Assembly: GCA_947447625.1 (NCBI GenBank)
Contig: CANFKS010000038.1
Coordinates: forward strand, 1-36,533
Reading direction: 5' to 3'
DNA: 36,533 bases
From: Rhodospirillales bacterium
Lineage (GTDB): Bacteria; Pseudomonadota; Alphaproteobacteria; Acetobacterales; Acetobacteraceae
Below the pieces are notes generated by a model. It worked only from the letters and a program-made list of their open reading frames with translations, made no database searches and was not told the DNA's origin. A program made the translations under genes and the position numbers. Every line of letters begins with the position of its first letter. The stretch's first letter is position 1. Positions 8,582 through 36,533 of the stretch are shown here, in pieces.

Positions 8582-8638
8582 CCGGCCCGGGCGGTGCCGT
8601 GCGCGGCCGTGCCCGTTGCATCTCGCTGGAGCCAAGTC

Positions 8639-11413
8639 ATGAGCGACGTCGCCGCCATTCGATCCGTGGACAGACCCGAAGGCCAGCGCATGGCGCTCGG
8701 CATGAGCACCACCGCGTTCACCGTCTGCTTCGCGGTATGGACGATTTTTTCGATCATCGGCATTCGCATTCGCCAGGAACTCGGACTGACGCAAACCGAA
8801 TTCGGGTTGCTGGTCGGCACACCGATCCTGACGGGTTCGATCATCCGTGTGGCGCTGGGGATATGGACGGACCAGTACGGCGGACGGCGGGTCTTCACGA
8901 TCACGATGCTGGCCGCGGCCGTGGCAACATTCCTGCTGGCCTATGCCCACACCTATCTGATGACGCTGGTCGCAGCACTCGGCGTGGGCATTGCGGGCGG
9001 CTCGTTCGCGGTTGGCGTGGCCTATGTCTCGCGCTGGTATCCGGCTGAAAAGCAGGGTACGGCGCTGGGCATATTCGGAGCCGGCAATGTTGGCGCGGCG
9101 GTGACGAAGTTCTTTGCGCCGTTGGTCATGGTGGCGCTCGGCTGGCAGGCGGTGGCGCAGGTATGGGCCGGCGCCCTGGTGGTCATGGCGGTGGTGTTCT
9201 TCATCACCACTAAGGACGATCCGGTGCTGGCGGCACGGCGCTCGTCGGGCGAGAAGCCGAAATCGGCCTGGCTAGAACTGGAGCCGCTGGCCAATGTGCA
9301 GGTTTGGCGGTTCGCGCTTTACTACTTCTTCGTGTTCGGCGCCTTCGTCGCGCTGTCGCTGTGGTTGCCGCAGTACATGATGTCGGTCTACGGGCTCGAC
9401 GTTCGCTCGGCCGGAATGATCGCGGCGTTCTTTTCGGTGCCGGCGAGCCTGCTGCGCGCCTATGGCGGGCATCTCTCCGATGTGTACGGCGCGCGCCGGG
9501 TGCTGTGGTGGACGTTCGCGGTGTCCATCGTGGCGACCTTTCTGCTGTCGTATCCGCCGACGGACTACATCGTCACCGGGATCACCGGGACATACGCCTT
9601 CCACATGGAGATGGGGGTGGTGGGCTTCGTCGTGACCCTGTTCGTGCTCGGCTTCTTCATGGCCCTGGGCAAGGCGGCAGTCTACAAACACATCCCGGTC
9701 TACTATCCCGGCAATGTCGGCTCGGTCGGGGGGCTCGTCGGCATGATCGGCGGGCTGGGCGGCTTCGTGTTGCCGATCCTGTTCGGCGCGCTGAATGACC
9801 TGACGGGGCTGTGGACGTCGTGCTTCATGGCGCTCTTCCTGGTCGTTTTCGTCTCGATGGTCTGGATGTCGGTCTCGATCCGCCAGATGGAGCGCGCGGC
9901 GGTGGGCGAGATGCTCGCCACGCTGCCGCAGTTGCCGGAAATGCAGGGGATGCCGATTCCCAAGGCCGCAGCCGGCCGGTCCGGCGCTGGTGCAACCGCG
10001 ACGGGCGGCGCCGACGCGACCTCCAAGAGCGGCGCGGTGCTGACGGATTGGCGGCCCGAGGATGCCGGGTTCTGGGCAAGCACCGGCAAGGTCGTTGCGC
10101 GGCGCAACCTGTGGCTCTCGATCCCGTCGCTGCTGCTGTCATTCGCGATCTGGCAGGTGTGGTCGGTGGTGGTGGCGAAGCTGCCGCTGGTGGGGTTTAC
10201 GTTCACGAATGACGCGTTGTTCTGGCTCGCGGCGCTGCCTGGGCTGACCGGGGCGTCTTTGCGGATCTTCTACTCCTTCATGGTGCCGATTTTCGGCGGC
10301 CGGCTGTGGACGACGGTGACGACCTGGTCGTTGCTGATCCCTGCGGTCGGCATCGGCTATGCGGTGCAGAACCCGTCGACCCCTTATGTGGTACTGCTCA
10401 TCCTGGCGCTGCTGTGCGGCTTCGGCGGCGGCAATTTCGCCTCTTCGATGGCGAATATCTCGTTCTTCTTCCCCAGGGCGGAGAAGGGCAATGCGCTGGC
10501 CCTGAATGCCGGGCTCGGCAATCTCGGCGTGAGCGTGGTGCAGTTCGTGGTGCCGCTGGCGATCACGGCGGGCGTGTTCGGCTGGATCGGCGGGCCGCCA
10601 GAGGTGGTGAAGGCGGGGATGGCTCCGCTGTGGCTGCAGAATGCGGGCTTCGTGTTTGTTCCCTTCATCGTCATCGCCGCCTTTGCCAACTGGTTCGGGA
10701 TGCATGACATCGCCTCGGCCAAGGCTTCGTTCGCGGAACAATCGGTGATTTTCAAGCGCAAGCACAATTGGATCATGTGCTGGCTCTACACCGGCACGTT
10801 CGGCTCCTTCATCGGCTACTCCGCCGGCTTTCCGCTGTTGGCAAAAATTTTGTTCCCGGATGTGGATGCGTTGCAACTCGCCTTCATCGGGCCGCTGGTG
10901 GGCGCCCTCTCGCGTTCCGGCACCGGCTGGGTGTCGGACAGGTTCGGCGGTGCGCGCGTGACGTTCTGGGTGTTCTGGCTGATGCTGCTCGGCGTCGGCG
11001 GCGTTTTGTGGTCGATCTCGATGCACGCGCAGCCCTGGGCGTTCGGGGCCTTTTTTGGCGCCTTCCTGGTGCTGTTCTTTGCCACCGGCGTGGGCAACGC
11101 CTCCACCTTCCAGATGATCCCTGCGATCATGCGCATCGAAATCGCGCGACTGATGCCGGGTGCCTCGCCTGACCAGGCGCGGCTCCAGGCAGAGCGGGAG
11201 AGTGCGGCCATCACCGGCTTTACCTCGGCGATCGCAGCGTTCGGCGCCTTCTTCATCCCCAAGGGCTACGGCACCTCGATCCATCTCACCGACGGACCGG
11301 AGGCGGCGCTGTGGGCCTTTGGGATCTTCTACGTCACCTGCATTGCCATCACCTGGGCGGTCTACAGCCGCCGCGGCGGGATGCTGCATGCCATCGAGCG
11401 CCAGGCGCGCTGA
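8639..11413 (+). CDS. narK: Fused NarK1-NarK2 nitrate/nitrite transporter
   Basis: The product is 924 residues and is two complete 12-helix MFS nitrate transporters in one chain, as in the Paracoccus-type NarK fusion. Domain 1 (about 20-435) carries GSIIRVALGIWTDQYGGRR and the nitrate signature GAGNVGAAVTKFFAPLV at about 147-163. A Gly/Ala/Thr-rich linker (about 441-475) leads to domain 2 (about 485-915), with GLTGASLRIFYSF, GFGGGNFASSMANISFFFP near 593 and GLGNLGVSVVQFVVPL near 625-640. NarK1-type domains do proton-linked nitrate uptake and NarK2-type domains do nitrate/nitrite exchange. The ATG at 8639 has GGAG seven bases upstream; a GTG at 8594 is in frame but has no such support. narG follows after 12 bases. 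Confidence 0.93.
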   Translation: MSDVAAIRSVDRPEGQRMALGMSTTAFTVCFAVWTIFSIIGIRIRQELGLTQTEFGLLVGTPILTGSIIRVALGIWTDQYGGRRVFTITMLAAAVATFLLAYAHTYLMTLVAALGVGIAGGSFAVGVAYVSRWYPAEKQGTALGIFGAGNVGAAVTKFFAPLVMVALGWQAVAQVWAGALVVMAVVFFITTKDDPVLAARRSSGEKPKSAWLELEPLANVQVWRFALYYFFVFGAFVALSLWLPQYMMSVYGLDVRSAGMIAAFFSVPASLLRAYGGHLSDVYGARRVLWWTFAVSIVATFLLSYPPTDYIVTGITGTYAFHMEMGVVGFVVTLFVLGFFMALGKAAVYKHIPVYYPGNVGSVGGLVGMIGGLGGFVLPILFGALNDLTGLWTSCFMALFLVVFVSMVWMSVSIRQMERAAVGEMLATLPQLPEMQGMPIPKAAAGRSGAGATATGGADATSKSGAVLTDWRPEDAGFWASTGKVVARRNLWLSIPSLLLSFAIWQVWSVVVAKLPLVGFTFTNDALFWLAALPGLTGASLRIFYSFMVPIFGGRLWTTVTTWSLLIPAVGIGYAVQNPSTPYVVLLILALLCGFGGGNFASSMANISFFFPRAEKGNALALNAGLGNLGVSVVQFVVPLAITAGVFGWIGGPPEVVKAGMAPLWLQNAGFVFVPFIVIAAFANWFGMHDIASAKASFAEQSVIFKRKHNWIMCWLYTGTFGSFIGYSAGFPLLAKILFPDVDALQLAFIGPLVGALSRSGTGWVSDRFGGARVTFWVFWLMLLGVGGVLWSISMHAQPWAFGAFFGAFLVLFFATGVGNASTFQMIPAIMRIEIARLMPGASPDQARLQAERESAAITGFTSAIAAFGAFFIPKGYGTSIHLTDGPEAALWAFGIFYVTCIAITWAVYSRRGGMLHAIERQAR

Positions 11414-20770: not shown

Positions 20771-21136
20771 AAAGGCACTTCTCCTGCGGCCGTTGTGGCT
20801 GTTCGATCTCGGAAATTGGCAGTTCTTACGCGTGATACATAAGTAATTGTTCATAGTTATTAAAAAAAAAGTAAAAAAGACAATCGGGGAAAATTGCATT
20901 AATTCATCTTTTTATATTAATATCATGCCATAAGAAAAAATTATGCGTTGACGGCTTCGATATTAGAGTCAATTATTTTTTGATCGTAAGATTTTTTTAT
21001 TAATACGTTTTGGTCGTTGATGGTATGTGTTATTTTGGCGCGTTGATGAACCACCAGCCATGTCAGCCCTCCATCGTCGAGGGCGGGGAAGCGCGAGCGA
21101 ACGACACGGTTGGTCTGGCCGCTTGATGTTGCACCC
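20771..21136. other. AT-rich intergenic region upstream of the glycosyltransferase
   Basis: This 366-bp gap contains a block at about 20840-21010 that is strikingly AT-rich (A9 run, TTTTTTATTAATA, ATTATTTTTTG) in an otherwise GC-rich window. TTGACG at 20948-20953 with AATTAT at 20971-20976 (17-bp spacing) could be a sigma-70-like promoter for the downstream pair. No hairpin terminator for the nar operon is obvious and no coding frame with family similarity is seen. The base composition could reflect acquired DNA or a nucleoid-protein-bound control region. Confidence 0.45.
20948..20976 (+). promoter_or_regulatory. Candidate promoter for the heptosyltransferase-giant repeat operon
   Basis: TTGACG and AATTAT are spaced by 17 bases within the AT-rich block, about 160 bases before the glycosyltransferase ATG. 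The -10 is a weak match, so this is a candidate only. Confidence 0.3.
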
Positions 21137-22414
21137 ATGACGATGGCCGAGACGAAGCCCTCGATGGGTCTTGGCTTGCCGTCGAGCTATCCCCCCGTCG
21201 CAATGCTGCCGACCCAGGTCGGCCCTTCCGGTGTGCGATACGACTTCAACACGGGTTGCCGGGTCACCCTCCCCATCAGAGAGAGCGGTGTGTGGCGCGT
21301 GGTCATGCGGGACCTCGATACCAACAACATCCTTTTTGATCACGAGACGCAAGGTGCCGAGGTGAACTCGACCAAGCGCTGGTTCGTGCGCTTCGCACTC
21401 GATGTTTGGGAGATCGATGGGGCTACAAAATCGCTGGTCCTGTCACATCAGTTTGACCCCACAGGCCACGTCCTGCTCGTGATGTTCCCGATCGGGACCT
21501 TGGGCGACACCATCGCCTGGTTCTCTTACGTTGCCCGCTTCGCCCGCAAACACGCGGGCGCCAAGGTGATCTGCGCCTTGGCTGATCGCATGATCCCCCT
21601 CCTGGCGGCCAATTACCCTGAACTCGAACTGGTCACCCATGACGACATCGCGACGCGCAGCCTCGCGGAAACCGCATACGCCACTTACTATCTCGGTTTG
21701 TTCTTCGATGACGCGGCCCTGAACTGGCAACCGACCGACTTCCGGTTTGTCGGCTTACACCGGACGGCCGGCTATATTTTAGGTGTCGATCCAACGGAAG
21801 AGGCCCCGCGACTTGTACCCAGCGAGGCGACACGGCCAATCGCCGAGCCCTATGTCGTGATCGCGGTCCAGAGCAGCAGCGGCGCCAAATACTGGAACAA
21901 CCCCGACGGCTGGCGGGCGGTGATCGCCCTGCTGCGTACTCATGGATACCGGGTCGTCTGTATCGATCAAAAGCCCGTCCACGGCACCGGGATGATGTGG
22001 ACCCATATTCCCCATGGCTGCGAGGATGAAACCGGCGACCGCCCCCTCGCGGAGCGGGCCCGCTGGCTCCAACATGCCGATTTCTTCATTGGCCTCTCCA
22101 GCGGCCTCGCCTGGCTTGCCTGGGCTGCCGGTTGCCCGGTCGTGCTGATCAGCGGCTTTACCCACCCCTCCAACGAGTTCGACACGCCGCACCGGGTCAT
22201 CAACTGGCACACCTGCAATTCCTGCTGGAACGACCCGACCGAGCGTTTCGATCACCATGACTTCTTCTGGTGCCCCCGCCATGCCAACACGCCGCGCCAA
22301 TTTGAATGCACGCGGCTGATAACGGCAGAACAAGTCTGTGCTGCGATTGCGGCCGTGCCGGGTTTTCGCACCCTTGTTGAGGGTCAAGACGCAGGCGAGG
22401 TGGCCGCGGCGTGA
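21137..22414 (+). CDS. Autotransporter strand-loop-strand O-heptosyltransferase (TibC/Aah family)
   Basis: The product is 425 residues and resembles the bacterial autotransporter heptosyltransferases, which transfer ADP-heptose to serines of beta-solenoid repeats in the cytoplasm before export. The N-terminal block (LPTQVGPSGVRYDFNTGCRV, then the WRVVMRDLDTNNILFDHE region) and FPIGTLGDTIAWFSY at about 117-131 are family hallmarks. The GT-B C-terminal half has SSSGAKYWNNPDGWRAV and FFIGLSSGLAWLAWA. Four cysteines, C360, C363, C379 and C391, match the iron-finger arrangement described for TibC. ATG 21137 is chosen; 21143 or a TTG at 21110 are alternatives, and no strong Shine-Dalgarno sequence is seen. 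It overlaps the giant repeat gene as GTGA, so that protein is the obvious substrate. Confidence 0.92.
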   Translation: MTMAETKPSMGLGLPSSYPPVAMLPTQVGPSGVRYDFNTGCRVTLPIRESGVWRVVMRDLDTNNILFDHETQGAEVNSTKRWFVRFALDVWEIDGATKSLVLSHQFDPTGHVLLVMFPIGTLGDTIAWFSYVARFARKHAGAKVICALADRMIPLLAANYPELELVTHDDIATRSLAETAYATYYLGLFFDDAALNWQPTDFRFVGLHRTAGYILGVDPTEEAPRLVPSEATRPIAEPYVVIAVQSSSGAKYWNNPDGWRAVIALLRTHGYRVVCIDQKPVHGTGMMWTHIPHGCEDETGDRPLAERARWLQHADFFIGLSSGLAWLAWAAGCPVVLISGFTHPSNEFDTPHRVINWHTCNSCWNDPTERFDHHDFFWCPRHANTPRQFECTRLITAEQVCAAIAAVPGFRTLVEGQDAGEVAAA

Positions 22415-25400
22415 CCATCACGATCGTCCAAAGCAACACGAGCGGTTCTCTGGTCGGTGCTGGCGTTGTTTTGGCGGTGACGCCAGGCAATTTGGATGTT
22501 GGCGCGCGGGTCTCCTCGGGCGGTATTTTGACTGTCTATTCCGGCGGTTCGACCAGTGCCACGGTGGTGAGCGGCGGCGGCATCTTTGTGGTGAGCAGCG
22601 GCGGCAGTGATGCCGCCACGACGGTTTTTGCGGGTGGCACGGCGCAGGTGCAATCCGGCGGCATTGCCAGTGCATTGTCGGTCAGCAGTGGCGGAACCCT
22701 CTTTGCAGGCGGCGGCAGTGTCGCTGGGCTGACGCTGGCCTCCGGCGCAATGGAGGTCATTGGCAGCGGCGTTGCCTCAAATGGCGCCATGGTCAACGCC
22801 GGGGTGACGTTGCGGGTCTCCTCGGGGGGCAGTGCCACGTCTGCGACAGTGTCCAGTGGGGGCACATTGGACATAGTTGGGGGCGGTTATGCCTCGGGGA
22901 CTACGCTCCAGAGTGGCGCTACGGAGATCGTCTCCTCAGGCATTGTCTGGACTGGCGGCACGATCAGTGCGGGCGTGACGGCGGTAGCAAAAGCACTTGC
23001 AGTCGTGAACTCGATGAGCGTTTTGTCTGCCGGATTGCTGGTTGTCAGTTCGGCTGGCTCGGCGGTCTCAGCGATGATTTCGGGCGGCGGCACGGTCCTG
23101 GTGAGCGCGGGCGGCACGACGAGCAACGGCGTTGTCTCATCGGGTGGCACTGCGATTGTGCTCTCTGGAGCGATCGCCAGCAACGGAACCATCAACGCCT
23201 TCGGCCAGTTGTCCATCGGCTCCGGTGGCCGTGCGGCGAGTGCGGTGCTGTCCGGCGGCACGGCGCTGGTCCTGTCAGGCGGCACTGCAAGTGCCACCGT
23301 GGTGAGCGCAGGCGGCACGATTCAGATCAACGCCGGCGGGACTGCCCTGAGTGCCACGATCATGTCTGCGGGTATCGCCGCGCTGCTGGCTGGTGGATCC
23401 GCCACCGCACTGACCATCAGCGCGGGCGCGAGTGTGCAGATTGCGGGCATCGCGACCACCATCGTTGTGTCGAGCGGTGGTGCCGTGGCGGTCACCTCGG
23501 GCGGCGTGGCGAGCGGCGTGGTGGTGAGCAGCGCGGGAGGCCTGGTTGTCTCCGCGGCCGGCGTGGCAAGCAGCGTGGTTGTGAGCAGCGCGGGAAGCCT
23601 TTTCGTGTCCTCGGGCGGCGTGGCGAGCGGCGTGGTGGTGAGCAGCGCGGCAAGCTTGGTTGTGTCCTCCGGTGGTCGCGCAGTCGCGACGAACATTTCG
23701 CTTGGTGGCACGCAATCCGTCGCGTCAGGCGCCTTTGCCAGCACGACAATTGTGAGCAGTGGCGGCACCCTCTTCGCTGCGGGAGGGGCGATCACCGGGC
23801 TGGTCCTGTCTGCGGGTGCCTCTGAGGTTTTGGCGTCCGGTGTCACGTCGAGCGGTGCCACGGTCGCGTCAGGCGTGTCGCTCATCCTGTCCAGCGGCGC
23901 GGTGGCGAGCGGCGCGACGGTGCTGTCAGGGGGCGTGCTGCGGGTCAGTGCGGGAGGCGCGGCCTCTGCTGGCCTAGCCTCGAGCGGCGGCAACTGGACG
24001 ATTGCTTCGGGCGGGCTGTGGCAAGGGGGCACCGCGCTGGCCGGCGCGACGGTGACGATCTCCTCGGGCGGGTCGGTCATCGCCGCGGTGCTTTCAAGCG
24101 GTGTGCTCGCAACCGTCTCCAGCGGCGCCTTGGTCAGCGGCGGCACGGTGGCGAGTGGCGCGCGGATCACGGCACTTTCGGCGGGGGTGACGAGTAACGT
24201 GCTCCTGGTTGGCGGGGGTGTGGAGGCGCTGAGTTCCGGTTCCATCGCCAATGCGACGGAGATGTCGAGCGGCGCGACCATGTTGATCAACAGCGCCGGC
24301 GTGGCAACGAGTGCGATCGTATCCAGCGGCGCCACGATCGTGACGAGTACGGGCGGCACGACCCTCTCCGCGACTGTGGCGAGCGGCGGAAGCCTGAATG
24401 TGGGCTATGGCGGAACCGCGACGAGTGCGACGATTTCGAGCGGCGGCACGATCTTTCTCAATCAAAGCTCGACCGCCTCTTCGGTCCTGACCGCGCTGAC
24501 CCTGCTGCCTGGCGCCGTCGAGGTGTTCAATACCGGCGTCGTATCGAGCGGCATCGTCGTGTCCTCCGGGGCAGTGGTCATCGGCATGACCGGAGCCACC
24601 CTGTCCGCTCTGACGGTCAGCAGCGGCGGCACAGTCATCAACAGAGGCGCCAGCTTTGCTGGCTTCGTCTATTCGAGCGGTGGGACGCTGGTTCACTCGG
24701 CCTTCACGTTTGCTGCAGCCTATTCGGGTGGCCAGGGCTTGGCGCTGGCCGGTGGAGCCATTGCCAGCACGACCATCATCAGCAGCGGTGGGAGCCTGTT
24801 CGTGTGGTCTGGTGGCACGCTGATTTCGGGCAGCGTGCAGAGCGGCGGGATCGTCACCGTCAGCAGCGGCGGATCGCTGGTTTCCAACACCATCTCGACC
24901 GGTGCGAGCGTCACGCTCAGCAATGGCGGCGTGTTGATTTCGGGTACGCTGGCGTCCGGCGCGGCGATAACCCTGTCCTCCGGTGCGGTCGTCTCAGGCG
25001 CAACCCTGGCAATCGGCGAGACGCTTGCGGTGGGCGCGGGCGTCACTGCACGAGCCTTGATTCAACTCAGTGCGGCGACCGTCACGGTGACGGCAGGCGG
25101 TATGGTTTCTGGCAATGTGCTCAGCAGCGGCGGCAGTCTTGTGGTTGGCTCGGGTGGCACGGCGCTGTCGAACACGGTCAACTCCGCTGGCGTAGAACGG
25201 ATCTCCTCCGCGGGATATGACTCGGGCACCGCGGTACTCTCGGGCGGATCGCTCGTCGTGTATGCTGCAGGTGGCGGCTCCGCAATCACCTTTGCTTCGG
25301 GCGCTGTCGGAGTTGTCTCCTCGGGGGGCAGCCTTGTTTCTGCCGTGTTGAGCTCTGCCGCGGTCCTCACGATCAATTCGGGGGGCATTGATTCTGCGCT

Positions 25401-28400
25401 GGGGATTCAAGCGTCTGGCACTGCAATCATTGCCTCGGGCGGCACCGAGCTGGCACCGCTGGTGTCTCTCGGTGGCGTGATTTCCGCAAATCCCGGCGCG
25501 ACATTGTCGGGTGCGACGGTGCTGGCCGGTGGATCCTTGGTGCTCAGTTCGGGTGTCACGGTTGCTGGTCTGGTGGTCGCCAAAGGCGGCACGGAGATCA
25601 TCCTTGGAGCGACGTTCCAATCCAGTGGCGGCGTGGTTGCGGGCGGGGTTCTGGCAGTCAGTTCGGGCGCAACGGCCTCAGCCTTCACCATCAGCAGTGG
25701 CGCGACGGCGGTTGCCTATTCTGGTGGTGCGATCAGTGGCCAGATCGCATCGTCCGGCGCGACGATCCTGGTCAGCAGCGGGGGGTTTCAGCGCGGCGGC
25801 GTGAACTATGCCGGAAGCGTCGAGAAGATTTTGGTTGGAGGCTGGGCAAGCAACACCAACCTATCAAGCGGATCGACGGAAATTATCAGCAGTGGCGCAT
25901 CGACCAAATCGGTCAATGTGAGTTCTGGTGGCTCCCTTATCATCAGCAGCGCCGGCACCGGGAGTGCCACGCAGATATATTTGGGTGGAACGGTCTTTAC
26001 GTCCAGCAGCGGCATTGGAACGGCGCAAAACATCTACAGCGGCGGCAGTCTGATTGTGCTGTACGGAGGCTCCGAACTGGCCCCCACCGCCATCGCCGGA
26101 GGGAACGTCATCGTCTCTTCGGGTGGCATTTTGAGTGGCTTGAGCGTTTCTTCTGGCGCTAACCTCACCATCAGCGCCGGTGCGGTCATCAGCGCCTTGA
26201 CCATTTCCAGCGGCGCCGTGCAGTCCCTCACCTCCGGTGTGAGGGTGATCCAGGGCATTGTATCGGCTGGCGGCACGATGGTGGTCGGTTCGGGCGCCAG
26301 CCTGCTTTCGGCGCTGGGGTCGGGCGGCACGCTGTTTATCGCTTCGTCGGGGTTGCTGAGCAGCGCCACCATGGCGACTTCCGGTGGGACGGCCCTGGTG
26401 AGTGGCGGCGGCACCGCTGTGGCCGTCGTGGTGTCGAGCGGCGCGCTGGTGAGCGTGCGCGCGCAGGGTTTGCTCAGCGGCGCCACAGCGGCGTCGGGCG
26501 GCGTGCTGGATTTGATGTCGGGCGGCACGATGTCGGCTGCGGTGATGATCGCCGGCGGTTCGGTTGTCATTGAATCCGGCGGGACGCAGAACGGCGCGAC
26601 CTTGAGCTCCGGTGGCGCGCTCCTGGTCAGCGGCGGCGGCACGACAATCGCGCTGGCCGTCTCGAGCGGCGGGGTCTATGCGGTTGTCTCCGGTGCCGTG
26701 CTCAGCACCTTGGCGCTGAGCAGTGGTGGCACCGTCACGGTTCTCTCCGGCGGTGTCGTGAGTGGAGCCACGCACCTCTCGGGCGGCTTGTTGTCGGTTG
26801 GAGCAGGTGGAACCGAGATCGGTGATCTGCTGTCGAGCGGCGCGAGCCAGACGCTGTCATCGGGTGCTTCGGCTTTGTCGACCGTGGTCAGTGCGGGCGG
26901 CATCCAGACGGTCTCGTCGGGTGCGGTGGTCATTTCGACAGTGATCAGTTCGGGCGGCACTGAAATTGTGCTCTCGGGTGCTGTGATCAGCGCCGCCACG
27001 GTGAGTTCCGCCGGGGTGCTCACCGTGAGTTCCGGTGGTTCGATGCTCAGCACCCTCATCTCGAGCGGCGCGACGTTGACTTTATTGGCCGGCGCGGTGG
27101 CGAGCGGCGCCACGATCATTGCCGGTGGCTCCGTGTTCGTGAGTTCGGGCGCCACCTTCAACGGGGCGCTGAATTCGCTGGGCGTGCTGACGATCTCGAG
27201 CGGCGGCGTGGCCCAGAACGACACGCTGTTCGGCGTGAGCAACACCGTTCTTGCGGGTGGGTCCCTGGTCAGTGGTGTCCTTTCGGGCGGCAGCTTGGTC
27301 GTTTCGGGGCTCGTCTCGGGCCTCATTCTCTCGGGCGGCAAGTTGGATGTGCGCAGCGCCGGCACGGTGATTGCAGCGATGATGTCGTCGGGCGCCTCCT
27401 ATATTGGGTTGAGCGGTGCTGTGGTGAGCGGACTCACCGTCAGCAGCGGCGCGACCGTGACCGTCAGCACCGGACAGACCTTCTCCAACGTTTCGATCCT
27501 CAGCGGCGGCACAGAAATCCTCTCCTCCGGCAGTGTGGTGTCCACAGGGGCTACGGTTGGTGTCGGGGCAGTGTTTGCGGTTTCAAGCGGTTCGACGCTG
27601 GTTTCTGCGACCGTTTCGAGCGGCGGCACTGTGGTGATGAGCGCAGCGTCGCTCGCCACCGGATTGTCGTTGATGAGCGGTGCGACACAGATTGGCCGCG
27701 GCGCAAATTTGGGTACTGGCGGCACGATCAGCGCTGCCCAGACCATCGTTTTGTCTGCTGGCGCGACGATTTCAACATTGACCGTCGCGAGCGGTGCCGC
27801 TCTGCTTGTCAGCGCGACCGGAACGGCGACATCGGCCGCCGTCTCGTCGGGGGGCACGATGGTGGTCACCACCGCCGGTGTCGCTGCGTCTGCCACGCTG
27901 GGCTCTGGCGGTACGGTTTTGGTCAGCTCCGGCGGGACTGCTGCGGCTTTGGGGTTGGCCGGTGGGCTTGAGATTGTCAGCGCAGGCGGCATCGCGAGCG
28001 GCGGGACCGTGAGCGGGGGCAGCCTGGTGGTGAATTCGGCAGGCACCGCCAGCGCGGTGACTGTGGCTTTGCTCGGACAAATCCAAGTGAGTTCCGGTGG
28101 CCTGGCACTCAGTGGGTCCATTGGGTCCGGCGGTGTGGTCCGGGTTCTGCCCGGCGGCACCGGCAGCGCGCTGATTGTGAGCAGCGGAGGGACCTACCTT
28201 CTGAGCGGCACCGGAAATGCGGGTGGCACGGTGTTGTCCGGCGGCACTGAGATGATCGTTTCAGGCGCTACGGGCTTTTGGACGATCGTCAGTGCCGGCG
28301 GTTCTCTCGTTGTTTCGAGCGGGGCAATCTATTATCCGACGGGCATCGTCACGAGCGATACGATCGTGTCCAGCGGTGCGACACTTATCGCGCAGACCTC

Positions 28401-31400
28401 TGCTGTGACTTCAGCTATCGTCAATAGTGGTGTTACTTTATGGGTCAATAATACTAGCGCGAATGGGGTTGCAATCGCGGCAACTGTGTTGTCCGGCGGG
28501 TCGATGCGCGTGAGTTCGGGTGGTTCCGCGACTGCCCCGATTTTCTCCGGTGGCAGTGCGACGGTGCTTTCTGGCGGCTTGTTGAGCGGTGGTAGCCTCA
28601 GCGCTGGTCTTGTTGTGATCAGCTCCGCTGGCATCGTGAGCGGCCTGACTGTGAGCGCCTCTGGGCGGATCCTGGTCAGTTCCGGGGGCAGCGCCGTTGC
28701 GGCCGTGCTGTCGGGCGGCACGGCGACGCTCTCGGCGGGAGGCACCGGCAATGGCCTCGTCGTCAGCAGCGGCGGATCGCTGCTGATGAGTTCGGGCGGT
28801 TTTGCCAGCGGCGGCACGGTGTTGTCGGGCGGGACGGCATTTGTCCTCGCCGGTGGCACCGGCAGTGGGCAGGTCATCAGCAGTGGTGGGTTGCTGGCAA
28901 TAAGTTCAGGGGGGGTGGCCAGCGGGATCATGGTGTCGTCCGCCGGCACGGCCAGCATCCTCGCCGGCGGCAGTGGCGTGGGGCTTGTGGTCAGCACGGG
29001 TGGGGCGGTGGTGATCGGTTCGGCCGGTATTGCCAGTGGTGGAACAGTGCTGGCAGGGGGAATTGCCAGCATCCTGTCCGGCGGCGTGGCCTCAGCCACA
29101 ATGATCAGTGCGAGCGGCACTCTGGTCGTCAGCGCCGGCGCCACGATGAGTGCTGCCGTGGTGAGCAGCCAGGGGACCATCACCGTTCAATCCGGCGCAA
29201 CGCTGCTGGGCGGATCCGTGATTTCAACCGGGCTTGTGGCGGTTTCGTCCGGCGCGGTGGTCAGCGGACTGACCGAAAGCAGTGGCGGGACGATTGCGCT
29301 GTTGCAGGGCGCATCGGCAAGCGGCGGAACCGTTTCGAGTGGCGGTGTGGTTATCGTCTCGTCGAGCGCGGTATTGAGCGGTGGAACATCCCTCAGCGGC
29401 GGGACGATCCTGTTGTCGGGTGGCGTGCTCAGCGGAGTCGTGCTGTCCTCGGGGGCGATCGAGAGCCTCGCTTCGGGCACAAGCTATAGCGGTCTTTCCG
29501 TGAGTTCCGGGGCTATCCTGAATGTCCTCAGCGGAGCCGTGGCCAGCGGTGCCACCTTGGTATCCGGGGCCTCGCTGGTGGTCAATTCCGGGGCGAGCGT
29601 CGCCAACACATCGATTTCCGGGGGTGCGCTGGTCGTGTCGAGCGGCGCCGTGTTCTCGGCGGGAACGATGGCAGGTTTGACTTTTACGCCCCTGGTCGGC
29701 GCGGCTTTCAACAGCCTGACGGTCTTGTCTGGTGGCAGCCTGGTGGTGGGGTCCGGGGTCACGGCATCGGCGGCTCTGCTGTCGAGCGGCGGGACCGCGC
29801 TGGTTTCATCGGCTGGCACCGCCAATGCCACGACGGTCTATCGGGGGGGCGTCCTGTTCGTCAGCAGCGGGGGCATGGCATTGAGTGCCGGGGTGTCGAG
29901 CGGGGGCACGCTGACGGCGATCTCCGGCGCAACGGTGAGCGGTTCGACGGTGTCCAGCGGTGGCACGTTGTTGGTCAATTCCTCGCCGGTGCTGAGCGGT
30001 GTGACCTTCCTGCCCGGCAGTGTTGAGGCATTTACCAGCGGCGTCGTCTCCAGCGGTGCGACGGTACAATCGGGCTATGCCTTTGCGGCGATGATATCGG
30101 CCAACCTCAGCAATGCCGTTGTCAGCAGCGGCGGGACGATGATTGCTGCGGGTGGAACGCTCACCGGCTTGATCCTGAGCAGCGGCGCGACGGAAATCCT
30201 GGCCGGTATTGCCTCCGCGGCGATTGCTGTGGCGGCGGGGTTGACTTATGTCGCGGGCGCCGGCGCTGGCATCACTACGGCCATTGTTTCCAGTGGTGGC
30301 CTCCTCATTGTCCAATCCGGTGGTTCGGCACTTTTGGGCTCGCTGCAGTCGGGCGGCCAGATGATCATCAGCGGCGGAACCGCCAGCGGGATGACGGTGT
30401 CCAACGGGGCGTTGGTGCAGGTCTTAAGCGGCGGCACGATGAGTGCCCTGACGGTCGCCAGCGGCGCGACCGTGCTGGTGCTGAGCGGTGGAACGATCCG
30501 CGGCGGCACGATGGCCTCTGGCGGGAACCTCGTTTTGTCCGCCGGCGCGATCGCCTCGGGATTCGCGACGAGTGGCTTGGCATTGACCGTCAGTTCGGGC
30601 GCAACCGTCTCGGCCGTCACCGTCTCCAGCGGTGGGCAGATGAGTGTGGCGTCCGGTGGATCAGTTGTCGCTGGTAGTGTCCTATCCGGCGCAACTTTGA
30701 CCGTGAACTCAGGGGCAACGGCGAGTGGTGTAACGATTGCAAGCGCAGCAACGCTCACCGTTGTAGCCGGCGCCACGTTATTGGCTGGCAGTGTCGCAAC
30801 CACGTTGGCGGTCAGCTCTGGTGTGACAATCAGTGGTGTCACGATGCTGGCGTCCGGCACGCAGACCCTGCTTTCCGGCGGGACCGCCAGCGGCTCCATC
30901 TTGACCGCAGGCACGATGGTGGTCTCCTCCGGCGGTTCCGCTGTTGGTGCCAAAATCCTGGGCCTTGGCGTGGAGAGCGTGCTGCCCGGCGGCCTGGACA
31001 GCGGTGGGACTGTGAGTTCCGGCGGGACGCTGCTGGTGAGTTCCGGTGGGATGGCGAGCGGGAATACGATTTCCTCGGGCGGCACCGCGATCGCCCTTGC
31101 TGGCGGGCTGATCGGCAGTGCCGGTATCGTCAGCGCTGGCACCATGCTGGTGTCCTCCGGGGGGACGGTCAGTGGCTTGACGATGGGCGCCGGCGGGGTG
31201 CTGACGGTTTTGAGCGGTGGCACGGTGAACGTCGTCTCGGGGGGCAGTCTCATCGGCGGCACCGTGTCTGGCGGTGTAGAGACCATCGCCGCGGGCGCCA
31301 TGGTGAGTGGCGCGGCGATCAGTGCCGGGGCGACGGTAGCGGTCAGTTCAGGTGCGACGGCAAGTGGGCTGCTGCTTTACAGCGGCGGCACTGTGGCGGT

Positions 31401-34400
31401 GGCGGCGGGGGCGATTTACCAAGGCGGGACGATTGGCAGTGCTGCGACATTCGCAGTCAGTTCCGGGGTGGTGATCAGCGGTGTCACCCATCTCGGCGGC
31501 AGCACGGAGACCGTTCTGTCCGGCGGAACCGCGAGTGGCTCAATTTTGAGCAGTGGTGGCACCGTGCAACTCTCCGCTGGGGGCTCCAGCATCAGTGCGG
31601 TGGTCTTGTCGCTGGGGCAGCAGCTTGTCCTCTCCGGCGGCGTTGAGACCGGCACGGTGGTGAGCTCAGCAGGGACCCTGACGGTGAGCTCGGGGGGCTC
31701 AAGCCTTGCCGGTGTGATTTCGTCCGGCGGTCGGGCATTTGTCATGTCCGGGGGGCTGATGAGCAGCGCCACCGTGATCAGCGGCGGCGGTCTGGGCGTC
31801 CTCGCCGGGGGCACGGTGAGCGGCTTGACGATGAGCGCTTTGGATTCGACCTATCTTGTCATCTCCAGCGGCGCCACCGTCAGCATCGTTGCGGGCGGCA
31901 GTGTCTTCGGCGGGACAGTCTCGTCCGGTGGTGTCGAGACCATCGCGTCCGGTGCTGTGCTGACCAATGGCGTGATCAGGGTCGGCGGAACGGTGAGTGT
32001 CAGTTCCGGGGCAACCGCGAGTGGGCTTCTTTTGTCCAGCGGCGGCACGATCGTGGCGGCGGCGGGAGCGATTTATCAGGGCGGCACGATCAGCGCTGGT
32101 GCGATGCTTGCGGTCAACTCCGGCGTGACGCTGAGCAACGTGACCTTCCTCGGCACCGGAACGATTGGGTCGGGCGCAATCGTCAGCGGCTCGATCCTGA
32201 GCACCGGTGGGACCGTTCAACTCTCTGCTGGTGGCTCCAGCTTCAACGCGCTTGTCCGAAACCTCGGGCGGGAACTCGTGAGTTCTGGCGGGTTTGAAAC
32301 CGGCGCCATGGTGAGCGCCGGCGGTACGCTGCTGGTGAATTTCGGCGGGACGGCCAATTCGAATACTGTGTCATTGGGCGGCTCGGCGATTGTGCTCTCG
32401 GGTGGTCTGATCACGAGCGTCGCTGTCGCCAGTGGTGGGTCCCTGATCGCCTCGGCCGGGGGGACGATCGGTGGCGCGGTGGTGTCCAGCGGTGGGTCGC
32501 TGGTGCTCTCCTCGGTTGCGAGCATCAGCGGCCTGGTGCTGTTGTCGGGGGCGAAAGAGGTCTTTTTCTCTGGGGTCGTGTCCAGCGGGGCTTCGGTCGC
32601 GGGCGGCGTTGGTTTGGTGGTTTCCTCCGGTGCGGTTGTCTCGGCAGCCAGTATTGGTTCGGGGGGCTCCGTCACGATTGTCTCGGGCGGGTCGGCTGCG
32701 TCCATCGGCATTGCCTCTGCCGGCACGATGACGGTCGCGGCCGGCGGCATCGTGACGGCCCTGAATGTCACCTCTGCCGGCACTGTTATGCTGAGCGGCA
32801 CCGCGTCGGGCGGGCTGGTGTCCAATGGCGGGTCTCTGGTGATTTCTGCCGGCGCCACGGGGTCTCAAATCACGGTCTCCAGCGGGGGCAGCCTGGTTGA
32901 TGGTGGCCAACTGATCAGTGCGACCGTGAGCAGCGGGGGCGCTTTGGTGCTGTCTTCGGGGGGCACGACCAGCGCAACGACGCTGATACGGGGTTCGCAA
33001 ACCGTACTGTCCTCGGGCTTTGCCAGCGGCACGCTCGTACAGCTCGGTGCTGCGCTGGTGATCAGCACCGGCGGGACCGTGAGCGCTGCGGTCATCGCCG
33101 TGGGCGGGGCGCAGACCATCAGTGCCGGCGGCACTGGCAGCGGCGGCACTGTCTCGGGTGGCGCGGTTGTTATCAGTGCGGCTGGTACGGCCCTGAGCGA
33201 CACCATCATGTCAGGCGGTGTTGAAACTGTTTCATCCGGCGGGACGGCCGTCTCGGCAGTGGCGTCCGCAGGCGGCACGCTGATGGTGAGTAGCGGCGGT
33301 AGCATCCTGAGCGGCAACGCGCTCAGCGGTGGCAGCTTCATCGCCCGTGCGGGCGGCACAGTGAGCGCGCTGTCGGTCAGTGGTGGCGGTGTGCTCGTGG
33401 TGAGTTCGGGCGGCAGCGCCAATGCAGCCATCGTTTTGAGCAGCGGGCTGGCGTTGGTGTCGTCCGGAGGGCTTGCGAGCGCGACAAAGGTGAGTGCTGG
33501 CGCGACGCTGACGCTGCTCGCGGGCGGCACGACGAGTGCTGCGGTCGTTTCAAGTGGGGGAGTGGAGATTGTTTCCTCCGGCGGAGCAGCCAGCGCAACC
33601 ACGGTGCAGGCGGGTGGAACCCTAAAGTATAGTGCTGGAGCTATCGTCAGTGGCCTCGTATTGGCGAGCGGGGCAACAGAGGTCCTGGCCAGTGGGGCGG
33701 TGCTCAATAGTTTTACTGTTGTATCCGGTGCGGTGCTGGTGGTGAGTTCGGGGGCGACCGCGAATACGATCACTGTGGCCAGTGGTGGTAGTATCATCGC
33801 ATCGGGCGGCGTAATTTCTGGACTTGTGATCGCCGCCGGTGGGCGTGAGATACTGGCGAGTGGTATCGTATCGAGCGGTGCGACTATTCCTGCGGGCGCG
33901 ATGTTTATGGTGATGTCCGGCGCTTCGTCGCTGTCGGCGGTGATCTTGAGCGGCGGCAGCGAAGTGGTGTCCTCCGGTGGTATCGCCAGCGCGACGTCGG
34001 TCAAGAGCGGCGGGACCCTGTTTGCCTCCGGTGGTGTCGTTGCCGCTCTGGTGCTCTCCAGCGGTGCCTCCGCCATCATCGCCTCGGGCCTGACATCCAG
34101 CGGCGCCGTGGTGTCTTCGGGCGCGAGGCTGGTGGTGGCTTCTGGGGCGACGGTGCTTGCGCCCCTCATCGCCTCCGGCGGCGTGCTGATTGTGAGTTCG
34201 GGCGGCACCACAGTTTCTGCGGTGATATCGAGCGGGGGCATCGAATATGTTTCGGCTGGCGCTTTTGCCACGAGCACGACTGTCCTGAGTGGGGGGGTGA
34301 TCGGCAAGACGGGCACTGCAAGCGGGCTGGTTCTGTCGAGCGGTGCCAGTGTCCTGCTCAACGCGGGCGCGAGCTATATCAACGTGGCTTCGGGCGTGAC

Positions 34401-36533
34401 TGTGGCGCTCGCATCCGGGGGCAGTATCACTGGCTTTGTCGCGAGCGGCGGCCGTCTGGTGATCAGTTCCGGTGCGACTGCGGGGGTTGTTGTTTCGGCT
34501 GGTGCTGTGCAGATCGTGCTTTCGAGAGGCGTGACCTATGGCGCGATCGGTGCTGGTGCCACCTCGCTGATCAGCTCCGGAGGGACCGCGTCGAGCCATG
34601 TGCTGAGTTCCGGCGGGACCGAAATTGTCTCCTCGGGCGGTTACACGTCTGGCGCCGTGGTTTCAGGCGGACAATTGATCATCAATGCGGGAGGCACCGG
34701 CTCAAGCCTGGTTCTTCCCCTGACGAGTGCCGGGACGATAACGGTCAATTCGGGAGGGACCGCGAACACCATCGCCACATCCGGCGGTATTTTCGTCAAC
34801 AATGGAGGGTCTGTCAGCAATTTATCGTTAACTTACTATCTTGTCACAAGCGCTTATAACGCTTCGCTCGGTATCTATCAGTATACAACAAGATATTACG
34901 CTGGAGCCGGCGAAAGATTCGGTGGCGGTGTGGTTGTGAGCGGGGCAACCATTGGAAACCTCAGTGCTTTCGGCGGCACTTCTGGCGCTTTGTTCGTCAA
35001 TTTGACCGTCGCGGCCGGTGGCACGCTGTGGAATAATGGCGCATCTTTCGTTGGCTTGACGGTTGCTGCTGGCGGAACAGAGTTCATCGGCAGCGGCAGC
35101 ACCGCGATCCGTCCGGCGAGCGGCGATCCTGCCGCCATTCTCATCGTGCTCAGCGGGGGCACACTCAAGACGGCGGCCTCCAACCAATCCGGCGTCACGC
35201 TGAACAGCGGCGGCTCGGAGGTTATCCTGGCCGGCACGACCTTGCTGGGCGCGGGTATCAGGTCGGGTGGCATTCTGGTCGCAGCCTCCGGCGCGACCGC
35301 TTCGGCGACGTTGCTGAGTGCTGGCGGCGCCTTGCTGGTTTCCTCCGGTGGCACAAGTATTTCCGGCGCCGTCCTGTCCGGCGGGACCGAGGTGGTTTTA
35401 TCCGGGGCACTGGCCAGTGGCCTGGTTGTCTCGGCCGGGGGCTCGGTGGTGGCCGCGGGTGGCTCGCTGGTCGGGCTCGTGATGGCCAGCGGCGCCATCT
35501 ACGGGATGGCCGGCACCTTCGTTTCAAGCGGATTGGTGGTCTCCAGCGGCGCAAAAGTGGCTCTGACATATGGCGCCACCACCGTCAGCGGCACCGTCAG
35601 CTCCGCTGGATCCCTGACCATCGGCGCCGGCGGTGTTGATCTTGCGGGGGTGGTGAGTTCTGGTGGTTCGGAGGTCCTGTCCGCGGGAGGCTACGCCAGC
35701 GGCGTCATCGTGCTGAGCGGTGGCGTTTTCGCGCAGTTTGGCGGGACCATCTCGGGGATGACGCTCTCGAGCGGCGCCACCGAGTTGATCGGTGCCGGGT
35801 ATGTGGCCAGAGCGGCGGTCTTCTCCGGCGGCCAGACCCTCGCGGTCAACGGAACAACCAGCAATGCAGTGATCAGCAGTGGCGGGACACTGCGGATCAA
35901 TTCCGGCGGCAAGGATGTTTCGGCTTCGATCTTGTCGGGTGGCGTGCTCGTTGTGTCCTCCGGCGGCACTGCCACTGCACCAACCGTGAGTAGCGGGGGA
36001 ACGGTCCAGTTTGCCCGCGGCGCCGTGACCCTCGCCGTTCTGCTCAGCGGGTCTACCGAAATCCTCAGCAGCGGCGCGGTTCAGAGTGCTGCTGTCGTGG
36101 GCGCTGGGGTGGTCGATATTGTCAGTGCCGGGGCCACAGCAAAGGCCGTTACCGTGAGCAGCGGCGGTACGATCATGGCCGCTGGAGGTGTCATCAGCAG
36201 CCTTGTCTTGAATGGTGGCGGCGTCGAAATCGTCGCAGCCGGCATTACTTTGACGAGCCCCCAGGCGATCGGGAGTGGTGCGATTTTGATGGTGTCTGGC
36301 GTGACCAGCGCCGCGACGATTGGCAATGGTGGCTTGATGGTGCTTGCATCGGGCGGCGTGGATCGGTCGGCGAAGATCAATTCTGGGGGCACCCAGATGG
36401 TGTCCGCCGGGGGCGTCGTGAGCGCGGCCGTGATCAGCAGCGGTGCCACGCTCGTCCTCTCGTCCGGCGGCTCGGTCTCGAGTTTGACCTTCGCGGCCGG
36501 CGCGACCGAAGTGCTGGCCAGCGGTGTGACTTC
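22411..36533 (+). CDS. Giant strand-loop-strand (AIDA-type) repeat protein, 3' end beyond window
   Basis: From GTG 22411 the frame reads without a stop to the window edge, at least 4,707 codons. The start overlaps the heptosyltransferase stop (GTGA) and has GAGGTGG (22397-22403) as Shine-Dalgarno sequence. The whole chain is made of imperfect repeats of about 19 residues patterned like VVSSGGTxxVxSGGxA, the strand-loop-strand units of AIDA-I/TibA passengers that stack as a beta-solenoid. At 19 residues each, this is roughly 240 units (estimate). Ser, Gly, Thr, Ala and Val dominate; I saw no cysteine and only about eight Trp. The repeat serines are the expected heptosylation sites. The N-terminus (MTIVQSNTSGSLVGAG) lacks a Sec signal peptide, so type V secretion is not demonstrated. 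A C-terminal beta-barrel, type I signal or Hint-type domain may lie downstream. A surface or secreted adhesin or matrix role is inferred. Confidence 0.93.
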   Translation, partial: MTITIVQSNTSGSLVGAGVVLAVTPGNLDVGARVSSGGILTVYSGGSTSATVVSGGGIFVVSSGGSDAATTVFAGGTAQVQSGGIASALSVSSGGTLFAGGGSVAGLTLASGAMEVIGSGVASNGAMVNAGVTLRVSSGGSATSATVSSGGTLDIVGGGYASGTTLQSGATEIVSSGIVWTGGTISAGVTAVAKALAVVNSMSVLSAGLLVVSSAGSAVSAMISGGGTVLVSAGGTTSNGVVSSGGTAIVLSGAIASNGTINAFGQLSIGSGGRAASAVLSGGTALVLSGGTASATVVSAGGTIQINAGGTALSATIMSAGIAALLAGGSATALTISAGASVQIAGIATTIVVSSGGAVAVTSGGVASGVVVSSAGGLVVSAAGVASSVVVSSAGSLFVSSGGVASGVVVSSAASLVVSSGGRAVATNISLGGTQSVASGAFASTTIVSSGGTLFAAGGAITGLVLSAGASEVLASGVTSSGATVASGVSLILSSGAVASGATVLSGGVLRVSAGGAASAGLASSGGNWTIASGGLWQGGTALAGATVTISSGGSVIAAVLSSGVLATVSSGALVSGGTVASGARITALSAGVTSNVLLVGGGVEALSSGSIANATEMSSGATMLINSAGVATSAIVSSGATIVTSTGGTTLSATVASGGSLNVGYGGTATSATISSGGTIFLNQSSTASSVLTALTLLPGAVEVFNTGVVSSGIVVSSGAVVIGMTGATLSALTVSSGGTVINRGASFAGFVYSSGGTLVHSAFTFAAAYSGGQGLALAGGAIASTTIISSGGSLFVWSGGTLISGSVQSGGIVTVSSGGSLVSNTISTGASVTLSNGGVLISGTLASGAAITLSSGAVVSGATLAIGETLAVGAGVTARALIQLSAATVTVTAGGMVSGNVLSSGGSLVVGSGGTALSNTVNSAGVERISSAGYDSGTAVLSGGSLVVYAAGGGSAITFASGAVGVVSSGGSLVSAVLSSAAVLTINSGGIDSALGIQASGTAIIASGGTELAPLVSLGGVISANPGATLSGATVLAGGSLVLSSGVTVAGLVVAKGGTEIILGATFQSSGGVVAGGVLAVSSGATASAFTISSGATAVAYSGGAISGQIASSGATILVSSGGFQRGGVNYAGSVEKILVGGWASNTNLSSGSTEIISSGASTKSVNVSSGGSLIISSAGTGSATQIYLGGTVFTSSSGIGTAQNIYSGGSLIVLYGGSELAPTAIAGGNVIVSSGGILSGLSVSSGANLTISAGAVISALTISSGAVQSLTSGVRVIQGIVSAGGTMVVGSGASLLSALGSGGTLFIASSGLLSSATMATSGGTALVSGGGTAVAVVVSSGALVSVRAQGLLSGATAASGGVLDLMSGGTMSAAVMIAGGSVVIESGGTQNGATLSSGGALLVSGGGTTIALAVSSGGVYAVVSGAVLSTLALSSGGTVTVLSGGVVSGATHLSGGLLSVGAGGTEIGDLLSSGASQTLSSGASALSTVVSAGGIQTVSSGAVVISTVISSGGTEIVLSGAVISAATVSSAGVLTVSSGGSMLSTLISSGATLTLLAGAVASGATIIAGGSVFVSSGATFNGALNSLGVLTISSGGVAQNDTLFGVSNTVLAGGSLVSGVLSGGSLVVSGLVSGLILSGGKLDVRSAGTVIAAMMSSGASYIGLSGAVVSGLTVSSGATVTVSTGQTFSNVSILSGGTEILSSGSVVSTGATVGVGAVFAVSSGSTLVSATVSSGGTVVMSAASLATGLSLMSGATQIGRGANLGTGGTISAAQTIVLSAGATISTLTVASGAALLVSATGTATSAAVSSGGTMVVTTAGVAASATLGSGGTVLVSSGGTAAALGLAGGLEIVSAGGIASGGTVSGGSLVVNSAGTASAVTVALLGQIQVSSGGLALSGSIGSGGVVRVLPGGTGSALIVSSGGTYLLSGTGNAGGTVLSGGTEMIVSGATGFWTIVSAGGSLVVSSGAIYYPTGIVTSDTIVSSGATLIAQTSAVTSAIVNSGVTLWVNNTSANGVAIAATVLSGGSMRVSSGGSATAPIFSGGSATVLSGGLLSGGSLSAGLVVISSAGIVSGLTVSASGRILVSSGGSAVAAVLSGGTATLSAGGTGNGLVVSSGGSLLMSSGGFASGGTVLSGGTAFVLAGGTGSGQVISSGGLLAISSGGVASGIMVSSAGTASILAGGSGVGLVVSTGGAVVIGSAGIASGGTVLAGGIASILSGGVASATMISASGTLVVSAGATMSAAVVSSQGTITVQSGATLLGGSVISTGLVAVSSGAVVSGLTESSGGTIALLQGASASGGTVSSGGVVIVSSSAVLSGGTSLSGGTILLSGGVLSGVVLSSGAIESLASGTSYSGLSVSSGAILNVLSGAVASGATLVSGASLVVNSGASVANTSISGGALVVSSGAVFSAGTMAGLTFTPLVGAAFNSLTVLSGGSLVVGSGVTASAALLSSGGTALVSSAGTANATTVYRGGVLFVSSGGMALSAGVSSGGTLTAISGATVSGSTVSSGGTLLVNSSPVLSGVTFLPGSVEAFTSGVVSSGATVQSGYAFAAMISANLSNAVVSSGGTMIAAGGTLTGLILSSGATEILAGIASAAIAVAAGLTYVAGAGAGITTAIVSSGGLLIVQSGGSALLGSLQSGGQMIISGGTASGMTVSNGALVQVLSGGTMSALTVASGATVLVLSGGTIRGGTMASGGNLVLSAGAIASGFATSGLALTVSSGATVSAVTVSSGGQMSVASGGSVVAGSVLSGATLTVNSGATASGVTIASAATLTVVAGATLLAGSVATTLAVSSGVTISGVTMLASGTQTLLSGGTASGSILTAGTMVVSSGGSAVGAKILGLGVESVLPGGLDSGGTVSSGGTLLVSSGGMASGNTISSGGTAIALAGGLIGSAGIVSAGTMLVSSGGTVSGLTMGAGGVLTVLSGGTVNVVSGGSLIGGTVSGGVETIAAGAMVSGAAISAGATVAVSSGATASGLLLYSGGTVAVAAGAIYQGGTIGSAATFAVSSGVVISGVTHLGGSTETVLSGGTASGSILSSGGTVQLSAGGSSISAVVLSLGQQLVLSGGVETGTVVSSAGTLTVSSGGSSLAGVISSGGRAFVMSGGLMSSATVISGGGLGVLAGGTVSGLTMSALDSTYLVISSGATVSIVAGGSVFGGTVSSGGVETIASGAVLTNGVIRVGGTVSVSSGATASGLLLSSGGTIVAAAGAIYQGGTISAGAMLAVNSGVTLSNVTFLGTGTIGSGAIVSGSILSTGGTVQLSAGGSSFNALVRNLGRELVSSGGFETGAMVSAGGTLLVNFGGTANSNTVSLGGSAIVLSGGLITSVAVASGGSLIASAGGTIGGAVVSSGGSLVLSSVASISGLVLLSGAKEVFFSGVVSSGASVAGGVGLVVSSGAVVSAASIGSGGSVTIVSGGSAASIGIASAGTMTVAAGGIVTALNVTSAGTVMLSGTASGGLVSNGGSLVISAGATGSQITVSSGGSLVDGGQLISATVSSGGALVLSSGGTTSATTLIRGSQTVLSSGFASGTLVQLGAALVISTGGTVSAAVIAVGGAQTISAGGTGSGGTVSGGAVVISAAGTALSDTIMSGGVETVSSGGTAVSAVASAGGTLMVSSGGSILSGNALSGGSFIARAGGTVSALSVSGGGVLVVSSGGSANAAIVLSSGLALVSSGGLASATKVSAGATLTLLAGGTTSAAVVSSGGVEIVSSGGAASATTVQAGGTLKYSAGAIVSGLVLASGATEVLASGAVLNSFTVVSGAVLVVSSGATANTITVASGGSIIASGGVISGLVIAAGGREILASGIVSSGATIPAGAMFMVMSGASSLSAVILSGGSEVVSSGGIASATSVKSGGTLFASGGVVAALVLSSGASAIIASGLTSSGAVVSSGARLVVASGATVLAPLIASGGVLIVSSGGTTVSAVISSGGIEYVSAGAFATSTTVLSGGVIGKTGTASGLVLSSGASVLLNAGASYINVASGVTVALASGGSITGFVASGGRLVISSGATAGVVVSAGAVQIVLSRGVTYGAIGAGATSLISSGGTASSHVLSSGGTEIVSSGGYTSGAVVSGGQLIINAGGTGSSLVLPLTSAGTITVNSGGTANTIATSGGIFVNNGGSVSNLSLTYYLVTSAYNASLGIYQYTTRYYAGAGERFGGGVVVSGATIGNLSAFGGTSGALFVNLTVAAGGTLWNNGASFVGLTVAAGGTEFIGSGSTAIRPASGDPAAILIVLSGGTLKTAASNQSGVTLNSGGSEVILAGTTLLGAGIRSGGILVAASGATASATLLSAGGALLVSSGGTSISGAVLSGGTEVVLSGALASGLVVSAGGSVVAAGGSLVGLVMASGAIYGMAGTFVSSGLVVSSGAKVALTYGATTVSGTVSSAGSLTIGAGGVDLAGVVSSGGSEVLSAGGYASGVIVLSGGVFAQFGGTISGMTLSSGATELIGAGYVARAAVFSGGQTLAVNGTTSNAVISSGGTLRINSGGKDVSASILSGGVLVVSSGGTATAPTVSSGGTVQFARGAVTLAVLLSGSTEILSSGAVQSAAVVGAGVVDIVSAGATAKAVTVSSGGTIMAAGGVISSLVLNGGGVEIVAAGITLTSPQAIGSGAILMVSGVTSAATIGNGGLMVLASGGVDRSAKINSGGTQMVSAGGVVSAAVISSGATLVLSSGGSVSSLTFAAGATEVLASGVT
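23506..23676 (+). repeat. Three near-identical 57-bp (19-residue) tandem units
   Basis: Units at 23506-23562, 23563-23619 and 23620-23676 each encode VAS-(G/S)-VVVSSA-x-x-L-x-VS and share long identical DNA stretches. Elsewhere in the array units agree at the protein level but differ in codons, so these three mark a recent expansion and fix the unit length at 19 residues. Confidence 0.8.
31200..32390 (+). repeat. Segmental duplication of about 657 bp within the repeat array
   Basis: The segment from about 31200 to 31740 resembles the one from about 31857 to 32390 in register. GGVETIA lies at 31270 and 31927, ATASGLLL and AGAIYQGGTI occur at the same 657-bp offset, and TVQLSAGGSS occurs at 31561 and 32212 (offset 651, a two-codon indel). 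Both copies keep the order of the atypical units, so a block of roughly 34 units' length was duplicated rather than single units. Confidence 0.7.
34810..34926 (+). other. Non-repetitive Tyr-rich island inside the giant repeat protein
   Basis: In the giant frame this stretch reads SNLSLTYYLVTSAYNASLG, then IYQYTTRYYAGAGERF. It has eight Tyr in about 30 residues where the array otherwise has almost none, no SSGG motif, and clearly more A+T in its codons (TTA, TAT, AAT, ACA). It separates two stretches of regular repeats and could be a loop, an inserted mini-domain or a junction between two ancestral arrays. Confidence 0.6.

Follow-up and report, generated by a model that had tools for sequence, protein, structure and literature searches.

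The window, a stretch of DNA of 36,533 bases that makes up the whole of contig C38 in a draft genome of 197 contigs, ends in a pair of overlapping genes. With a probability of roughly 0.65, we read this pair as an operon that encodes a TibC-type heptosyltransferase together with the protein it modifies, a giant beta-helical rod outside the cell, which would be exported by a non-autotransporter route and would probably end in a Hint domain. The repeats and the enzyme are of already known kinds, and what is unusual is the length of the giant. The features of the pair, with positions in the window, are the following:

21110 to 22414, plus strand: TibC/Aah-type autotransporter strand-loop-strand O-heptosyltransferase (BAHT), 434 aa; TTG start as listed, with an ATG 9 codons downstream
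22411 to 22414, plus strand: start/stop overlap GTGA that joins the enzyme and giant genes, as read from the sequence
22411 to 36533, plus strand: giant strand-loop-strand (SLS) repeat protein gene with a GTG start; at least 4,707 aa and 424 kDa so far, C-terminus beyond the contig end
22411 to 23550, plus strand: residues 1-380 of the giant, the leaderless N-terminus, modelled as a regular beta-helix (AlphaFold2 pLDDT 89.1, pTM 0.80)

An earlier note on this DNA had claimed that no stop interrupts the frame from GTG 22411 to base 36533, giving at least 4,707 codons. Reading the plus strand confirmed this: the ORF at 22411 to 36531 starts with GTG, spans 4,707 codons and is open at its 3' end. 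Since base 36533 is the end of the contig, this number is a minimum, and the assembly breaks off within the gene. At the base composition of the giant's frame, a stop-free run of this length has a chance probability of about 10^-52, and the remaining forward frames over the same region contain 229 and 32 stops. GC content at the three codon positions is 58/64/74% and stays steady over the length of the gene. A chance origin of the open frame is excluded, and the giant is a real gene whose repeats and partner enzyme are of known kinds and whose size is extreme.

Tandem arrays detected by TRF in the giant's DNA are few and short. The repeat copies have diverged at the DNA level, so that expansion of the array through misassembly is not indicated. 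The last 300 bases of the contig are unique within the assembly, and we therefore rejected repeated sequence as the cause of the contig break. Contig C104 was also rejected as the missing end, as it does not overlap C38 and holds a separate, complete pair of genes. When the rest of the array was sought across the assembly (TIGR04415 to E 1; the giant's last 527 residues to E 10), matches were found only on C38 and C104, plus a marginal TIGR04415 match on C141 (E 0.4) in a frame of 50 aa.

The giant consists of 20% Gly, 18% Ser, 14% Ala and 13% Val, and contains no Cys. Its repeat period is 19 residues, with a glycine autocorrelation of 0.46 at lag 19 and 0.34 at lag 38. After division of the protein into ten segments, period 19 ranked top in eight and second after 38 in the other two. 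The profile search for the AIDA/strand-loop-strand family that the earlier note had proposed placed both models above their cut-offs. TIGR04415 matched with 606 bits (E 3.6e-187, cut-off 30) in 28 stretches, and PF16168, the AIDA repeat, with 163 bits (E 1.9e-48, cut-off 27). Among the TIGR04415 matches listed in the genome, about 106 of 129 fall in the giant frame, between 22438 and 36471. With scores above the curated cut-offs and a 19-residue period, the giant belongs to the SLS/AIDA repeat family.

A 19-mer HMM built from the giant found 234 units covering 80% of the residues; as it derives from the giant's own sequence, this is a measure of coverage and not independent evidence. Units scoring above 3 numbered 145 in the giant compared to 0 or 1 in shuffled sequence. 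Some turns of the array have diverged, and a few stretches are less regular, such as the one near residues 4102-4201. The earlier description of all of the protein as strand-loop-strand repeats of about 19 residues is thus right about the period and about repeats running nearly throughout, and slightly overstated in the word "all".

An AlphaFold2 model was made for residues 1-380 only, with an alignment composed of eleven further segments of the giant itself. The strand pattern in the model recurs about every 19 residues. Its best structural match is 4q1q, a TibC-glycosylated fragment of TibA (Z 34.3, rmsd 1.4 Å, 269 residues aligned), followed by Ag43 entries at Z 29.6-30.3 and then by other beta-helices near Z 21. 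Matches of the giant in the PDB by sequence are likewise TibA and Ag43. We predict with confidence that the N-terminal 380 residues form a beta-helix as in TibA and Ag43. For the giant as a whole, we predict a stiff beta-helical rod of about 250 turns, or small repeats. The rise of a beta-helix is usually about 0.48 nm per turn, and on this figure the assembled part would form a rod roughly 100-120 nm long.

The product of the upstream gene scores 598 bits against TIGR04414 (cut-off 200) and contains TibC_1st and Glyco_transf_9 domains. Against the TibC structure 4rap it scores 403 bits, with 53% identity over 371 aligned positions. In TibC, activity is lost or greatly reduced when Asp-110, Arg-286, Trp-305, Lys-230 or Cys-339/342/358/370 is mutated (PMC4358343). 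Compared with TibC, the enzyme keeps the catalytic base D133, K260, R316 and W335, and the iron-finger cysteines C369, C372, C388 and C400. Three of the four named sugar-binding residues are the same as in TibC, while the fourth, TibC Thr-226, is a Ser. Judged by its score, catalytic Asp, sugar-binding residues and four-Cys iron finger, the upstream gene product is a BAHT. The earlier proposal that the giant is paired with its own heptosyltransferase holds, considering this similarity and the GTGA overlap that places the enzyme gene directly upstream.

The sequences of the pair suggest that the giant is likely heptosylated by its partner. An HldE-type kinase domain scores above cut-off in the genome, consistent with a supply of ADP-heptose. 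Of the two ADP-heptose epimers, TibC takes mainly the D,D form while Aah takes both (PMC4358343). At the position that governs this stereoselectivity, the enzyme has Ser330, where Aah has Ser-294 and TibC has Pro-300. By analogy with Aah, the enzyme may therefore accept both epimers. The evidence speaks well for a giant beta-helix that carries heptose, and we infer the heptosylation itself. The enzyme family occurs in one of the four other genomes of the genus that were searched. The closest named heptosyltransferase (L066) has 68% identity, and no SLS frame was detected in the 10 kb downstream of it; it is possibly an orphan enzyme or has an undetected partner. The named hits of the enzyme point to Acetobacteraceae as the probable family of the genome.

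E. coli TibA has about 989 residues and AIDA-I about 1,286. Compared to these, the giant has at least 4,707 residues, lacks a signal peptide and has no barrel in the part that precedes the contig end, beyond which its C-terminus lies. TibC-TibA and Aah-AIDA-I share with the pair the enzyme family, including the catalytic and iron-finger residues, as well as repeats of 19 residues, a beta-helix and organization in one operon (PMC4358343, PMC3835316). Closer to home, SLS pairs with Hint domains in Acetobacteraceae (Acetobacter oryzoeni, Gluconobacter plasmids and C104) have the same gene order, enzyme and repeats. Their SLS proteins measure 807-1,154 aa, however, and the giant, with its end unseen, is at least four times longer.

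We surveyed AIDA-repeat frames for size in partial genome samples in which part of the candidates was scored. An AIDA match at E 1e-5 was present in 26 of 150 sampled genomes of the family, where the longest open frame apart from the giant had 3,512 aa. Two further samples comprised 385 and 398 genomes; one of them yielded an AIDA-repeat frame of 3,518 aa as its longest besides the giant, and the second held nothing close to that length. Like the giant, these two long SLS genes, in G127 (3,512 aa) and G822 (3,518 aa), are AIDA-repeat frames several thousand residues long; they are shorter than the giant, and the C-terminal region in G127 is of another kind. The giant is the longest open frame among the AIDA-repeat matches in the sampled genomes, a claim limited to the longest seen here because the samples were partial and the candidates scored in part. 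Some bacterial surface proteins of other kinds are longer, with up to 8,000 residues in Apilactobacillus kunkeei (PMC12863079). The one-contig genome G127 carries seven SLS genes in two regions (L098, L099 and L100), of 894 to about 3,512 aa and with similar C-terminal regions of about 400 residues. Elsewhere, an SLS frame of 2,569 aa (L101) also runs off the end of its contig, which means that such genes may appear shorter in draft assemblies than they are.

Having no room for a leader, the giant differs from an autotransporter passenger at its very start. A stop lies 11 codons ahead of GTG 22411, none of the 10 codons in between is a start, and by eye the N-terminus is without a basic n-region. 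As the sequence reads, a Sec signal peptide ahead of the repeats cannot be encoded. The autotransporter barrel PF03797 had no match in the assembled genome, in which the giant's own C-terminus is missing. The second enzyme and SLS pair of the genome, on C104, encodes a 1,154-aa repeat protein that is likewise leaderless at its start and has Hint_2 at its C-terminus. On these three grounds, a reading of the giant as an AIDA-I/TibA-like autotransporter passenger, the kind of protein with which the earlier note compares it, is not supported. Near this sister pair lies the gene of a 783-aa protein with RTX calcium-binding repeats (L010, 475-2826).

Hint_2 was also the most frequent ending of related proteins, found in 11 of the 21 C-termini scanned; PF03797 barrels and RTX repeats were found in three each. 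Plasmids of Acetobacter oryzoeni and Gluconobacter carry the gene of a Hint-ended protein 4-5 bases downstream of the enzyme gene. Two of these plasmid partners were scanned, and TIGR04415 was over the cut-off in one and at the cut-off in the other. By analogy with the sister locus and these acetic-acid-bacterial homologues, the giant's unassembled C-terminus most likely carries a Hint domain, of the self-cleaving type, rather than a barrel. The two Hint_2 genes of the assembly were rejected as the missing end itself, as both belong to different frames, neither of which is interrupted by the end of a contig. Type I secretion adaptors (HlyD) are present in the genome. No export genes adjoin the giant locus, where the upstream neighbour is a nitrate-reductase operon. 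Our literature search found nothing on TibC-type enzymes with Hint-domain partners.

Under our preferred reading, translation of the enzyme would directly precede that of the giant. In the cytoplasm, the enzyme would add heptose from ADP-heptose to Ser/Thr in the loops of the strand-loop-strand turns. The leaderless giant would then be exported without an N-terminal Sec signal, with type I secretion as a first guess, and the glycosylated rod would remain at the surface or in the matrix. A role in adhesion, aggregation or biofilm is proposed, the former two because of the E. coli relatives (PMC3835316). More tentatively, at slightly less than even odds, the giant may stand at the far end of a branch outside the autotransporters. 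In this branch, a leaderless giant beta-helix would be glycosylated by a TibC-type enzyme, export would take another route and a self-cleaving Hint domain would provide release or anchoring, uncoupling heptosylation from type V secretion.

It is improbable that the giant is instead a classical self-associating autotransporter adhesin of the AIDA-I/TibA/Ag43 type, with a giant passenger and a C-terminal beta-barrel lost at the contig edge. The NCBIfam models auto_AIDA-I and auto_Ag43 do match the repeats, below their own cut-offs, Burkholderiales homologues (L077, L080) pair the same enzyme with SLS proteins, and the C-termini that yielded three barrels include Burkholderiales homologues. The impossible signal peptide, the barrel-free assembly and the Hint_2 end of the sister protein all argue against it. 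A leaderless rod that is secreted by type I, lacks any Hint domain and has an RTX-like or other signal at its C-terminus is unlikely too, if less so. It would fit the non-Hint C-terminal region shared by the SLS proteins of G127, the RTX endings among the scanned C-termini, the HlyD adaptors and the RTX protein adjoining the sister locus, but Hint_2 is the ending of both the sister protein in this genome and the named Acetobacteraceae partners.

As improbable as the autotransporter adhesin is a decaying or unexpressed array, or an assembly chimera of several SLS genes. The assembly is a draft, a contig end cuts the SLS frame of L101 as well, and of the four other genomes of the genus searched, one had the enzyme family. 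However, the 4,707 codons contain zero stops with steady codon-position GC, the partner's catalytic residues are intact, there are no near-identical DNA copies to drive a chimera, and the last 300 bases are unique in the assembly.

TibC-type heptosylation has been described for autotransporters (PMC4358343, PMC3835316). If the enzyme indeed acts on a leaderless and very long substrate, its ring could handle proteins much longer than TibA and work with another export route. One would then have to ask how an enzyme of ring shape acts on some 250 turns.

Upstream of the enzyme and giant pair lies a narK-narGHJI operon with a PPIC-type rotamase gene and nnrS. A gap of 340 bases with 61% A+T separates this nitrate-reductase region from the pair, and nothing suggests a link between the region and the rod. 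At 2-634, a Gly/Ala/Ser/Asn-rich frame runs in from the start of the window; a TAG (395-397) interrupts it, and past this codon the same frame stays open until a stop near 634. This is possibly a pseudogene or a sequence error. Ahead of narGHJI, two MFS transporters, the second NarK-type, are encoded in a single frame of 939 aa (8594-11413).
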